Below, one piece after another: positions 42,349-46,846 of a stretch of DNA of 64,000 nucleotides. Source of the DNA: Halomonas korlensis (GTDB lineage: Bacteria > Pseudomonadota > Gammaproteobacteria > Pseudomonadales > Halomonadaceae); assembly GCF_900116705.1 (NCBI RefSeq), contig NZ_FPBP01000006.1, positions 62,001 through 126,000 of the forward strand, written 5' to 3'. The stretch's first letter is position 1; each line of letters begins with the position of its first letter. The notes under the pieces are model-generated. The model had not been told where the DNA came from. It ran no database searches and saw only the letters and a list, made by a program, of their open reading frames with translations. The position numbers were made by a program, and so were the translations under genes.

Positions 42349-43506
42349 TCAGATAGCCCGGCGCCGCAGCCCGTCGAGGGCGTGGCGCAAGGCATTCAGT
42401 GCATGGTCGATATCGGCTGGGGTCGTGAAGCGCCCGAAGCTGAAACGCAATGAGGACAGCGCCAGCGCACGTGGGACTCCAATGCCCTTCAATACATAGG
42501 ACGGCTCGACGCTCGCCGAGTTGCAGGCCGAGCCGGTCGAGAGCGCCACGTCGCGCAGTGCCATCAACAGCGACTCGCCATCCACGCCCTCGAAGGCAAG
42601 GTTAAGAATATTGGGCACCGCCACGTCTGTATCGGTATTGCGGTGGACACCGGGGTGATCCGCAAGGCCGGCCAGCAGGCGGTCGCGCAGCGCGACGATG
42701 CGGCGCTGGTCGGCCTCGCCCTCGGCGGCGGCCAGCGCAAAGGCCTCGCCCATGCCGGCGATCTGATGGGTGGCCAGGGTGCCGGAGCGCATGCCGCGCT
42801 CGTGTCCGCCGCCGTGGATCAGCGCTTCCACGCGGATGTCGGGGCTGCGCCTGACGTACAGGGCCCCGATGCCCTTGGGGCCATAGGCCTTGTGGCCGGA
42901 CAGCGACATCAGGTCGATGCCGAGCGTACCAACCGCCAGCGGCGTGCGGCCCACCGCCTGGGCGGCATCGGTATGAAAGGCCGCGCCGCCCTGGTGAGCG
43001 ATCTCGGCCAGCGCCGCCAGATCGTGGATACTGCCTAGTTCGTTGTTCACTGCCATCAGCGAGACCAGCACGGTGTCGCGGCGCATGGCCTCGCGCAGCT
43101 GGTCGGGCGTGACCCGTCCGTCGCGCCCCGGGGTCAGCCAGGTGACATCGAAGCCTTCGGCCTCGAGTGCCCTGGCGGTATCCACCACCGCCTTGTGTTC
43201 GATGATCGAGGTTACCAGATGCCGACCCCGGGCACGATTGGCGCGCATGAAGCCGATCAGCGCCAGGTTGTCGGCCTCGGTGGCGCCGCTGGTCCAGACG
43301 ATCTCGCGTGGGTCGGCCCCGATCAGCTCGGCGACCTGGCGGCGGGCCATCTCCACCACCTGTTCCGCCTGCCAGCCCAGCATATGGCTGCGCGAGGCGG
43401 GATTGGCGAAGATGCCCTCCTGAGTCAGGTGACGACTCATGACCTCGGCGACGCGCGGGTCGACCGGCGTGGTGGCAGCGTAATCGAGGTAGACGGATGC
43501 GTTCAT
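42349..43506 (-). CDS. iscS: Cysteine desulfurase IscS
   Basis: A 385-residue pyridoxal-phosphate enzyme that frees sulfur from cysteine. VYLDYAATTPVDPRV, SGATEADNLAL, AVNNELGSI, the PLP-Lys in SLSGHKAYGPKGIG, and the catalytic Cys in STGSACNSASVEPSYVLKGIG are intact. It starts 43 bases after the iscR stop and is followed 26 bases later by iscA, with no room for iscU. C-terminal residues end LRRRAI, shorter than E. coli IscS (404), which lacks the final IscU-contact residues. Confidence 0.95.
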   Translation of the reverse strand: MNASVYLDYAATTPVDPRVAEVMSRHLTQEGIFANPASRSHMLGWQAEQVVEMARRQVAELIGADPREIVWTSGATEADNLALIGFMRANRARGRHLVTSIIEHKAVVDTARALEAEGFDVTWLTPGRDGRVTPDQLREAMRRDTVLVSLMAVNNELGSIHDLAALAEIAHQGGAAFHTDAAQAVGRTPLAVGTLGIDLMSLSGHKAYGPKGIGALYVRRSPDIRVEALIHGGGHERGMRSGTLATHQIAGMGEAFALAAAEGEADQRRIVALRDRLLAGLADHPGVHRNTDTDVAVPNILNLAFEGVDGESLLMALRDVALSTGSACNSASVEPSYVLKGIGVPRALALSSLRFSFGRFTTPADIDHALNALRHALDGLRRRAI

Positions 43507-43549: not shown

Positions 43550-44020
43550 TCAGGGCGCCGAGGCCAGGATGCCGTCGTTGTCCAGGCGCCGACGCTGGCG
43601 GTTGGCGATCGTCTGCACCTCCTGGCGAACGGCCAGCTGCCCCAGCGTGATGCCGTCGAGGAAGCCGTGGATCTGCTCCGACAGTTCGCACCATAGATGG
43701 TGGGTCAGGCAGGTATCGCCCTGCTGACAGTCGGAGAGCCCGCCGCAGCGCGTGGAATCCACGGACTCGTCGACCGCATCGATCACCTGCGCCACCGAGA
43801 TGCTCTCCGGCGCCATGGCGAGCAGGTAGCCTCCGCCGGGCCCGCGCACGCTTTCCACCAGCCGTGCGCGGCGCAGTCTCGCGAACAGCTGCTCGAGATA
43901 GGAGAGCGAAATCTCCTGGCGCCGCGAAATGTCGGCGAGGCTGATGGGTCCCGTCGCGGCGTTCACGGCCAGGTCGAGCATAGCGGTGACGGCGTAGCGT
44001 CCCTTGGTGGTCAGGCGCAT
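43550..44020 (-). CDS. iscR: Iron-sulfur cluster regulator IscR
   Basis: A 156-residue Rrf2-family repressor. It binds a [2Fe-2S] cluster through Cys92, Cys98, Cys104 and His107, which fall at exactly the E. coli numbers ([17 protein letters not shown]). N-terminal winged helix [18 protein letters not shown]. The ATG at 44020 is chosen because it gives this numbering; a GTG 12 bases upstream is possible. Retention of all ligands suggests that IscR still senses Fe-S supply even though iscU is missing. Confidence 0.96.
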
Positions 44021-44104
44021 GCCAGTGGGCACCTCGGCGTCGATATGGCGACTGATGAAGAAAGCGGCTTCTCACAGGCAGAAGACCGCACAAATTGTAG
44101 GGCT

Positions 44105-44134
44105 ATTATGGGAAAGACCGAGTGTCGCGGTCAA
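44105..44134 (-). promoter_or_regulatory. Candidate sigma70 promoter of iscR
   Basis: On the minus strand TTGACC, an 18-base spacer and CATAAT. The -35 overlaps the last codons of cysE. It lies 85 bases before the iscR start; autoregulation by IscR would act here. No clear IscR-type palindrome was recognised. Confidence 0.5.
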
Positions 44135-45003
44135 CCATTGCGCCGCCGGGGCTCGACGGACCGCTGGCTGGGCTCGTCCGCCTGCCGTGGGGCGTCGTGA
44201 TCAGGTGGGGGGCAGCAGCTGTCGACATCGGCGAGGATATCGGCAAAGTCTTCGTCGCGCAGTTCAGGTAATTGGCCCTCACGGTAGCTCGCGTCGACCT
44301 TGCGCAGGGTGGTGCACATGCGCTCGATGCGCTCATCCACGGCATGCATGTGATCGAGCATGGCCTGGATCGAGCGGGCCACCGGGTCGGGCATGTCCTG
44401 ACTGATGCCGTAGGCATCGAAGCCGAACTTCTCCTGCATGGCCTCACGCCTGGCCGGATCGATGTCCAGCTCTTCGGCCTGGTCCGGGTCGAGGCGCTGG
44501 ACGACCTTGCCCGGGATACCGACCACCGTCGCCCCGGCGGGTACTTCCTTGGTGACCACGGCGTTGGAGCCGATCTTGGCCCCGGCGCCGACACTGAAGG
44601 GTCCGAGAATCTTGGCCCCGGCGCCGACAATCACGCCGTCCTCCAGCGTCGGGTGCCGCTTGCCCTTGTTCCAACTGGTGCCGCCCAGGGTCACGCCCTG
44701 ATAGAGAGTTACATCGTCGCCCACCTCGGCGGTCTCGCCGATCACCACGCCCATGCCATGGTCGATGAAGAAGCGCCGCCCGATGACCGCGCCGGGGTGG
44801 ATCTCGATGCCGGTCAGCCAGCGCGAGAAGGTCGAGAGGCTGCGCGCCAACCACTTCAGGTTCTTCTGCCACAGCCAGTGGGCGAGACGATGGATCAGCA
44901 GTGCGTGCAGCCCTGGGTAGTTGGTCAGGACTTCCAGGAAGTTGCGTGCCGCCGGGTCGCGGGTGAACACGCTGTTGATGTCCTCGCGCAGACGTTGAAA
45001 CAT
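44131..45003 (-). CDS. cysE: Serine O-acetyltransferase CysE
   Basis: A 290-residue left-handed beta-helix acetyltransferase for cysteine synthesis. Hexapeptide repeats from [55 protein letters not shown] carry the catalytic His-Asp pair. About 40 residues of the polar tail ([18 protein letters not shown]) extend past the usual domain. Next to iscR and trmJ as in Pseudomonas (cysE2). It supplies cysteine used by IscS. Confidence 0.96.
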
Positions 45004-45139: not shown

Positions 45140-45907
45140 TCACTCATCTGTCTTCGGGCACCGGGTGCGTTGCTCGGTGGCGGTGAGAATGCCGCGCAGG
45201 ATGTTGAGCTCCATGCGCTCGGGACGGGCCCGCAGGGTGAAGCGTCGCAGCCGGGCCATGAGCTGACGCGGGGTGGCCGGGTCGTGAAAGCCAATCGCGA
45301 CAAGCGTGCGTTCCAGGTGCGCGAAATAGCGCTCGAGTTCCTGGTGATTCGCCAGCGCATGGGGCGTGGGCGCGGCGGCCTCGGGGGTGTCGTCGGTATC
45401 CCCCACTTGCTGCGCCAGCCAGACCAGCCGGCACTCGTAGGCCAGCACCTGGACCGCCGTCGCCAGGTTCAGCGAGCTGAAGTCAGGATTGGCGGGAATG
45501 TTGACGTGGGCGTGGCAGCGTTGCAGTTCGCTGTTGGAAAGCCCGCTATCCTCGCGCCCGAACACCAGGGCCACCCGGGCGCGCTCGTCGGCGAGTTCGG
45601 CGGGCAGCGACTCGGCAAGCTCGCGTGGCGTGGTCATCGGCCAGGGCAAGGTGCGCGAACGGGCGCTGGCGCCCACTACCAGGGTGCAGTCGGCCACCGC
45701 CTCTTCCAGCGTCGCCACCTGGCGGGCCGCATGGACGATATGATCGGCGCCCGAAGCGCGCGACACGGTATCGGCGCTGATCGGCTCGCAGCGCGGGGCG
45801 ACCAGCGCCAGGTCCGCAAGCCCCATGTTGTGCATGGCGCGCGCGGTGCCGCCGATATTGCCGGGGTGGCTGGTGCCGATCAGGACGATGCGGATGCGCT
45901 CGAGCAT
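45140..45907 (-). CDS. trmJ: tRNA (cytidine/uridine-2'-O-)-methyltransferase TrmJ
   Basis: A 255-residue SPOUT-class enzyme that 2'-O-methylates position 32 of tRNA. SHPGNIGGTARAMHNMGLADLALVAP, ALVFGREDSGLSNSELQRCH and SSLNLATAVQVLAYE form the knotted SAM site. ATG at 45907 with AAGG at seven-base spacing; the longer in-frame frame reaches into suhB's leader and is rejected. It is divergent from suhB, the conserved arrangement. Confidence 0.96.
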   Translation of the reverse strand: MLERIRIVLIGTSHPGNIGGTARAMHNMGLADLALVAPRCEPISADTVSRASGADHIVHAARQVATLEEAVADCTLVVGASARSRTLPWPMTTPRELAESLPAELADERARVALVFGREDSGLSNSELQRCHAHVNIPANPDFSSLNLATAVQVLAYECRLVWLAQQVGDTDDTPEAAAPTPHALANHQELERYFAHLERTLVAIGFHDPATPRQLMARLRRFTLRARPERMELNILRGILTATEQRTRCPKTDE

Positions 45908-46051
45908 GAGGGTGCCTTCAAGTCGAAGTGTCGAAACGATGGCGAGGGATTCTAGCATGTCGGCGAGACGCTTCGAATGGCGAAGCTTCTCGGCTTCTGC
46001 TAGGATTCGCGCCGATCCGTTCTTTAACACCACCGACGCCTAGGCCCGATC

Positions 46052-46846
46052 ATGCATCCGATGGTCCAATTCGCGCTGCGCGCCTCACGCAGCGCCGCCG
46101 AACAGTTTCTGCGCATCCGCGAGAGAATCGAGAACTCCCACCAGGAGCACAATCTCGACCGTCTCCTCGAGGACGCCGCCCGCAATGCCGAGTCGCTGAT
46201 CGCCCATCAGCTCTCCCGTGGCTATCCCCAGCACGGCGTGGTGGGTCGCTTCACCCCCCACCGTGACGGCGAAGGCGAGGGCCAGGACACCCTATGGAAG
46301 ATCGAACCCTTCCATGGCTATTCCAACCTGACCGTGGCCGCGCCGTCTTTCGCGCTGTCGCTGGTCTGCCTGGTCAAGGGCCGTCCCGAGCATGCGGTGG
46401 TGATCTCCCCCTTCAGCGATGACGAATACCTGGCCAGCCGTGGACGGGGTGCTCAGCTCAACGGCAAGCGCATCCGCGTACCGCGCACCACGGCCGTCGG
46501 TGGTGCGCGCGTCGCCCTGGGCCTGCCCGAGACCTGGCTGCGCCCCCGGCACATGCCCGCCTACCTGACGCTGGCGCAGCAGCTCGGGCCGCAGATCGAA
46601 GTTCAGCGCGCCTCCGGCAGCGGCCTGCTCGACCTGGCCGACCTGGCCGCGGGCCGCGTCGATGCCGCCTTCGTGCTGGGCCTCGAGGAGCAGGACATGC
46701 ACGTCGGCTCGCTGTTGCTCAAGGAGGCCGGGGCGCTGATGGGTACCCCCGACGGTCAGCCCGACATCAAGATCGAAGGGCAGCTGATGGCCGCCGGTCC
46801 ACGGCTCTACAAGTCGCTGGTGCAGCAGCTCAAGCCGCATTTCTGA
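46052..46846 (+). CDS. suhB: SuhB-like protein with lost catalytic metal site
   Basis: A 264-residue inositol monophosphatase-fold protein that keeps the suhB position, opposite trmJ, and the SuhB start MHPM. It aligns closely with E. coli SuhB through the end (RGRGAQLNGKRIRVPRTT, LLDLADLAAGRVDAAF). The metal ligands do not: E. coli TEESG (Glu67) reads GRFTP, and the signature DPLDGTT reads EPFHGYSN (Glu85, His88), so Asp84 becomes Glu and Asp87 becomes His. Only the Asp in the WDFAAG region is kept (EEQDMHVG). Phosphatase activity is therefore unlikely. In E. coli SuhB also acts as a Nus factor in rRNA antitermination independent of catalysis, a role this protein could keep. Confidence 0.9.
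   Translation: MHPMVQFALRASRSAAEQFLRIRERIENSHQEHNLDRLLEDAARNAESLIAHQLSRGYPQHGVVGRFTPHRDGEGEGQDTLWKIEPFHGYSNLTVAAPSFALSLVCLVKGRPEHAVVISPFSDDEYLASRGRGAQLNGKRIRVPRTTAVGGARVALGLPETWLRPRHMPAYLTLAQQLGPQIEVQRASGSGLLDLADLAAGRVDAAFVLGLEEQDMHVGSLLLKEAGALMGTPDGQPDIKIEGQLMAAGPRLYKSLVQQLKPHF

Follow-up and report, generated by a model that had tools for sequence, protein, structure and literature searches.

The gene studied here lies in a 64-kb stretch of Halomonas korlensis DNA, which we call the window. Features of the locus are listed in Table 1. The encoded protein matches the PF00459 profile with 90.2 bits, against a cut-off of 27. The nearest solved structures are those of Pseudomonas aeruginosa SuhB (PDB 9j90 and 8wdq, both named Nus factor SuhB; E=2.5e-51 and 2.6e-51, respectively). 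Entry 9j90 aligns across residues 1-263, and E. coli SuhB (2qfl) across residues 1-261 (E=4.2e-40). Hence, the full-length likeness to SuhB claimed in a first-pass annotation, made from the DNA letters alone, is borne out over nearly the whole protein. Identity to E. coli SuhB (b2533), which is both a Nus factor and an inositol monophosphatase (IMPase), is 32%. The two proteins share their length, their family, the MHPM start already pointed out in the first pass, and residues R10, R13 and K251. By homology, the residues that support the fold are likely retained. Note that an AlphaFold model built from 33 sequences had a mean pLDDT of 37.7 and was set aside. The genes share their setting as well. 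As first described, suhB is syntenic and divergent to trmJ, and the layout in E. coli K-12 agrees: there, trmJ and then iscR-iscS lie on the same side of suhB. One difference is the cysE-like gene, which in the window sits between trmJ and the isc genes and which is absent from that place in E. coli.

Conservation was assessed in two samples that partly overlap. The first comprises 60 Halomonadaceae loci, 30 from the same genus and 30 from genomes of 23 other genera. The second, the ‘named loci’, holds the best 80 of 171 confirmed, from Halomonas, Billgrantia, Vreelandella, Franzmannia, Litchfieldella, Onishia and Bisbaumannia; these are close relatives, 72-98% identical. The nearest genome for the protein is G040 (98% identity), and the copy in H. 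jincaotanensis TRM 85114 (L160) is also 98% identical to the window protein. Outer members of the family are 37-46% identical. A match at E<=1e-30 occurs in 275/275 Halomonadaceae genomes, from 24 genera. The median dN/dS for suhB is 0.171 (30 same-genus copies), compared with 0.233 for trmJ (29 copies). The divergent arrangement with trmJ recurs in 59 of the 60 loci and in all 80 named loci. In the exception, L059 (genome G171, genus g19), an apparent trmJ start lies just downstream of suhB, on the same strand. The leader boxA is retained there, although the divergent arrangement is gone.

Table 1. Features at the H. korlensis suhB locus (window positions; names ending in ‘-like’ are readings of domain matches).
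Feature	Position	Strand	Basis
suhB orthologue, canonical IMPase metal site absent; ATG at 46052, product of 264 aa	46052..46846	+	Match to solved SuhB, PF00459; E67, D84 and D87 replaced
R66 codon, in place of metal ligand E67 of E. coli SuhB	46247..46249	+	R in 80/80 named loci
E85-P-F-H88, in place of D84-P-L-D87	46304..46315	+	E and H each in 80/80 named loci
D215, equivalent of D212, sole canonical metal ligand kept	46694..46696	+	D in 52/60 Halomonadaceae loci and 79/80 named loci
K254, equivalent of NusA-AR2 contact residue K251	46811..46813	+	Alignment; role of K251 from PMC6614801
boxA GTTCTTTAACA, exact match to GYTCTTTAANA, starting 33 nt before the ATG	46019..46029	+	Pattern search
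Extended -10-like element TGCTAGGAT, its end 12 nt 5' of boxA; putative suhB promoter	45998..46006	+	Consensus match only
trmJ (SpoU_methylase), divergent upstream neighbour marking the suhB locus	45140..45907	-	Domain match
Hexapeptide acyltransferase (cysE-like), separating trmJ from the isc genes	44131..45003	-	Domain match
Rrf2-family regulator, iscR-like	43550..44032	-	Domain match
Aminotransferase class V, iscS-like	42349..43506	-	Domain match

We take the IMPase metal ligands to be E67, D84, D87 and D212 (E. coli SuhB numbering, used below for alignment columns). E. coli SuhB has E67, D84, D87, D44, T89, R184 and W211, whereas Halomonas SuhB has replacements. Similarly, the solved P. 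aeruginosa protein carries the canonical EE and DPLDGT motifs, both absent here. The first-pass annotation had stated that Glu67 is gone and that the DPLDGT signature has become EPFHGY. Alignment to E. coli SuhB agrees on both points: R66 stands at the first position, D84 has become E85 and D87 has become H88. The family-wide alignment then proposed gives the same result. The full set of four ligands occurs in 0/60 Halomonadaceae loci, from 24 genera; E67 is found in none, D84 in two, D87 in none and D212 in 52. In the named loci, the ligand columns read REHD in 79 of the 80 and REHE in one. Positions T41, D44, E68, T89, R184 and W211 are likewise replaced in most family members, so the loss goes beyond the substitutions listed at first. 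With no full ligand set in 60 loci, and R-E-H in all 80 named loci, sequencing error or chance is ruled out. The ligand loss is family-wide and not peculiar to the H. korlensis genome.

The replacements are themselves conserved. Columns 67, 84, 87, 88, 89, 90 and 211 are R, E, H, G, Y, S and Q, each in 80/80 named loci, and the R184 column is A in 79. Note that the mean top-residue frequency in this alignment is 0.858 and that 93 of its 259 columns are invariant. Side chains of E, H and D are able to bind metals. Two metal-binding Asp residues are gone, as the first-pass annotation said. Its further reading, an ablated metal site, is best put conditionally, because the E and H replacements could still coordinate a metal and the pocket is invariant in 80/80 named loci. 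The kept D212, together with the invariant remade pocket, suggests that the pocket may still do something. Outside the named loci the ligand columns differ. In outer Halomonadaceae genera they read RNLE, TNVA, GDVQ, HNHE or QQHE, and in degenerate copies from other families RDQE, QQDK, RCDS and more. Hence, there is no single new site common to degenerate copies.

We turned to residues that contact NusA. PMC6614801 examines an E. coli KL251/254AA variant for contact with NusA-AR2, and gives a Kd of 94 nM for the binding of E. coli SuhB to AR2. We sorted SuhB proteins as ‘degenerate’ or ‘intact’ on the basis of the four ligands, and the ligand counts of each group therefore simply follow from its definition. 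This does not apply to column 251, which was picked beforehand from PMC6614801; the other ‘Nus-type’ columns were selected using the very data in which they are counted. A further group holds 16 intact-site paralogues not linked to trmJ; in compiling it, f33 proteins L133 and L138, which fall with SuhB in the tree described below, were placed with intact SuhB together with L135, also from f33, and L114 and L123 were dropped. A basic residue stands at column 251 in every intact SuhB (31/31), in 30/31 representatives of Halomonadaceae and in 31/32 of the other trmJ-linked degenerate copies, compared with 0/16 of the paralogues. L055 and L146 are the exceptions among trmJ-linked copies. In the sample of 60 Halomonadaceae loci, the residue is basic in 59. 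Column 254 is aliphatic (I, L, V or M) in 30/31, 27/31, 31/32 and 1/16 proteins of the four groups, in the same order, and R10 is present in 30/31, 31/31, 31/32 and 1/16. The L254 position is V in 48 of the 60 Halomonadaceae loci, and is V257 in the window protein. The basic C-terminal helix is common to Halomonas and P. aeruginosa SuhB.

The presumed partner is conserved as well. All genomes tested encode NusA (30/30), and AR2 aligns in each of them; the H. korlensis protein is encoded at locus L251. In f6, NusA is short of a few residues at the AR2 start, and in genus g19 the C-terminus differs. The latter is the genus of L059, whose genome encodes a NusA (L265) with an altered C-terminus.

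The suhB leader is a further candidate link to the Nus complex. PMC5725501 gives GYTCTTTAANA as the gammaproteobacterial boxA consensus, and describes repression of E. coli suhB by the Nus complex through a boxA in the 5' UTR. A leader boxA has been reported in many, not all, gammaproteobacterial genera. PMC5725501 also mentions three genera with boxA ahead of an unannotated suhB homologue; Halomonadaceae may be among them. The boxA in Table 1 is the sole consensus match in the window, and 0/100 shuffles had any. As in Halomonas, the E. coli boxA comes just after an extended -10-like element, with TGCTATACT located 15 nt ahead of it. Among the 79 named loci with an exact boxA, TGNTANNNT occurs within 45 nt 5' of boxA in 44 (35 are without it), where shuffling gives an expectation of 1.1. 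The gap between the two elements varies among named loci. An exact leader boxA is found in 55 of the 60 Halomonadaceae loci and the other five have one mismatch. With up to one mismatch allowed, 60/60 Halomonadaceae loci carry the motif within 100 nt of the start. Among trmJ-linked copies elsewhere, it is found in 17/32 degenerate and 13/28 intact ones, and among intact copies without the trmJ link in 1/21 (of which 21, three are f33 SuhB). Exact matches outside the family number 7/32 for other degenerate copies versus 4/28 for intact trmJ-linked copies. On this comparison, we rejected the idea that a boxA in the leader marks degenerate suhB outside Halomonadaceae.

Counts of boxA across whole genomes differ between relatives. 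The 4.04-Mb H. korlensis genome has four exact matches versus seven for a reversed-pattern control. An Rfam search of its boxA loci (L155-L158) gave no match; two of these, L157 and L158, are located at the ends of contigs and have near-identical leader-like sequence. The complete genome G002 has ten exact matches versus none for the reversed control. Of seven sites searched with Rfam in G002, four precede 16S and three precede 23S rRNA. An eighth is at 16S-23S pair spacing from an rRNA-linked site, a ninth belongs to the suhB leader, and the tenth is unexplained. For three other single-contig genomes, the counts are 7, 38 and 43, versus 7, 14 and 27 in the control; G190 is the genome with seven of each. 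The suhB leaders of these three genomes are among the matches. Two exact boxA sequences remote from suhB are possible further Nus targets, or chance matches: G000:C11:200242-200252 (L156), with no Rfam match, and G002:C1:3193354.

Our next goal was to define how widely the ligands have been lost. With E. coli SuhB as the query, 384 of 391 genomes from the order gave a match, with scores that looked bimodal. All four ligands are present in each of the best 30 loci (30/30); a divergent trmJ was within the fetched flank for 23 of these and not for seven. We then chose 44 genomes with low or mixed family or genus scores, from which 60 of the 75 matches listed became loci. This identified 32 trmJ-linked copies without the full ligand set, in f5, f6, f18, f24, f34, f35, part of f36 and part of f41. 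Intact trmJ-linked copies were seen in f33 (L127), in f41 (genera g123, g151 and g152) and in f36 (g117). Counting Halomonadaceae, degenerate copies occur in at least nine of 43 families seen; this is a minimum, since the genomes sampled were selected ones.

Across 281 genomes sampled from the class, most SuhB scores were strong and 14 weak genomes were examined. Three of the 14 have trmJ-linked degenerate copies (L305, L308 and L310); degenerate copies L302, L304 and L313 are not trmJ-linked. L310 is basic at both column 251 and column 10, L305 has K251 and not R10, and L308 has neither. L300 retains the DPLDGT and WD motifs in its readable part, and L323 is CysQ-like, with DPLDGT retained. 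The genomes with L302 (f161), L304 (f181), L305 (f183), L308 (f61), L310 (f154) and L313 (f47), all outside the order, are 1.1-1.8 Mb in size.

Phylogenetic trees suggest that the loss is repeated. The SuhB tree was made by a quick method, with 57 rows covering a subset of copies (f18 and L135 are absent) and CysQ (L002) as outgroup. Degenerate copies from f1, f5, f6, f24, f34 and f35 are gathered in a single clade (SH-aLRT 99), and those from f41 and f36 group with intact f41 proteins (95). The best tree places degenerate SuhB with intact SuhB and not with the paralogues, but joins the two with a support of 77.7 only. The TrmJ tree needs at least seven state changes and is poorly resolved at depth. 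In the NusA tree, two degenerate f41 genomes have an intact f41 genome as their sister (100/99 and 99/97); just two changes are needed overall, because few intact genomes are included. We read these data as one old loss and two or more further ones inside the order, with the caveat that long branches may be misleading. Hence, ligand loss was probably repeated, several independent times, and probably predates Halomonadaceae.

Taken together, our data make it likely that Halomonas SuhB is a true orthologue, kept as a Nus factor for rRNA transcription, and no longer an IMPase. The sequence data show directly that the gene is syntenic and homologous to suhB, that its ligands are replaced, that it is under purifying selection and that K251 is retained; they also show boxA in the leader and, in one relative, at rRNA genes, and a NusA with AR2. 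The first-pass proposal, of a protein kept for its Nus role and not for phosphatase activity, thus gains in silico support from synteny, purifying selection, K251, the leader boxA and NusA-AR2 in 30/30 genomes. Loss of activity, NusA binding, a function in antitermination and autoregulation are properties that we infer for the Halomonas protein. Mechanistically, it probably has the fold and dimer of SuhB. The conserved basic C-terminal helix, including K254 (K251 in E. coli), would probably dock with NusA AR2. SuhB would then probably help load NusB/NusE onto boxA of nascent pre-rRNA, and the same Nus complex probably represses suhB synthesis via the leader boxA. PMC6614801 discusses an E. coli SuhB variant with R184 changed to A, and states that phosphatase activity is unnecessary for relieving the effects of a suhB mutant. 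Several points weigh against this reading: D212 is kept, the pocket with its potential metal ligands E84 and H87 is invariant in 80/80 named loci, L254 is mostly V, L308 (one of three trmJ-linked degenerate copies outside the order) is without K251 and R10, an exact leader boxA is not general outside the family and does not follow degeneracy, boxA counts do not exceed the control in the H. korlensis genome or G190, and the support for joining degenerate to intact SuhB is 77.7.

The first two of these points also bear on an unlikely alternative, in which the active site was rebuilt. Here R66, E85, H88, Y90, Q214 and D215 would make up a new pocket for a metal or ligand, conferring another activity or binding a regulatory ligand, perhaps atop the Nus role. 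Seven pocket columns invariant in 80/80 loci, with D212 in 79/80, exceed the mean top-residue frequency given above, and some of the residues can bind metals. However, the pocket lies within a generally conserved protein, and outer genera and other families differ at the ligand columns. More broadly, and only as a tentative proposal, SuhB might be a dedicated pseudoenzyme Nus factor across a large part of the order and in unrelated families. The pocket would then have been rebuilt and fixed separately in each lineage (R/E/H/Y/Q/D in Halomonas), and would now be structural, an RNA or protein contact, or a new metal or ligand site. On this proposal, the loss of R184 from these proteins could lock a dimer that is independent of metal.

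It is highly improbable that Halomonas SuhB remains an IMPase with an unusual metal site. The PF00459 score is well above the cut-off, D212 is kept and D84 to E is a conservative change. Conversely, E67, D44, T41, T89 and D87 are lost together with W211 and R184, and the H. korlensis genome encodes a paralogue with an intact site. The NCBIfam equivalog NF008027 scores the window protein at 150.1 bits, with a cut-off of 332; this is a weak point, since the intact paralogue (L001) is also under the cut-off, at 144.7. We give equally little credence to SuhB having left both jobs for an unrelated role. While its function in Halomonas is deduced from sequence, and outer family members have diverged to 37-46% identity, the AR2-contact residues and leader boxA are retained and NusA-AR2 is found in all 30 genomes tested.

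Least probable of all is that the window carries a decaying copy and that the paralogue on contig C17 is the real suhB, for although an intact-site PF00459 protein (L001) exists elsewhere in the genome, it is not at trmJ and falls outside SuhB in the tree, the 16 intact-site paralogues from the order have no basic column 251, no truncated SuhB was found among the 60 read and 80 named loci (lengths 257-268), and decay is ruled out by a dN/dS of 0.171 and a match in 275/275 family genomes. The first pass had named, as contrary evidence, another complete suhB in the same gene neighbourhood alongside decay of this copy in relatives. No such second gene was found in the H. korlensis genome, and the relatives show no decay.

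We conclude that evolution appears to have split the phosphatase and transcription jobs of SuhB in Halomonas and its relatives. PMC4807359 describes SuhB as a widely conserved IMPase, with no obvious need for the activity in E. coli. Whether phosphatase activity contributes to the Nus role was previously addressed using E. coli mutants. Evolution seems to have run the mutant experiment across families, with catalytic residues lost and contact residues kept. Hence, degenerate SuhBs are ready-made separation-of-function proteins, and offer a prediction of which SuhB surfaces are relevant to antitermination. No printed account of a natural phosphatase-dead SuhB was found in the literature searched, on SuhB, boxA/NusA, pseudoenzymes and Halomonas. 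Note, as a warning for annotation, that the IMPase profile is matched by genes without the IMPase metal site.

IMPase-like paralogues not linked to trmJ (L001, L106, L109, L112 and others) share PF00459 with SuhB and are often encoded in the same genomes. Unlike Halomonas SuhB, they have an intact metal site, other neighbours and, in the 16 examined (L001 excluded), no basic column 251. Strict coupling of ligand loss to an intact paralogue was rejected as a rule. The reason is four f34 genomes (G307, G337, G386 and G604), in which a search with the SuhB profile (E<=1e-18) found degenerate SuhB only and no intact paralogue; these genomes may have no IMPase of the SuhB kind. H. korlensis has two further PF00459 proteins, both at other locations. 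L002 is CysQ (299.5 bits, cut-off 228.8) and adjoins a gene read as cysNC. L001 (G000:C17), with its intact site, does not reach the cut-off of any of the NCBIfam models listed, and histidinol phosphate is a possible substrate.
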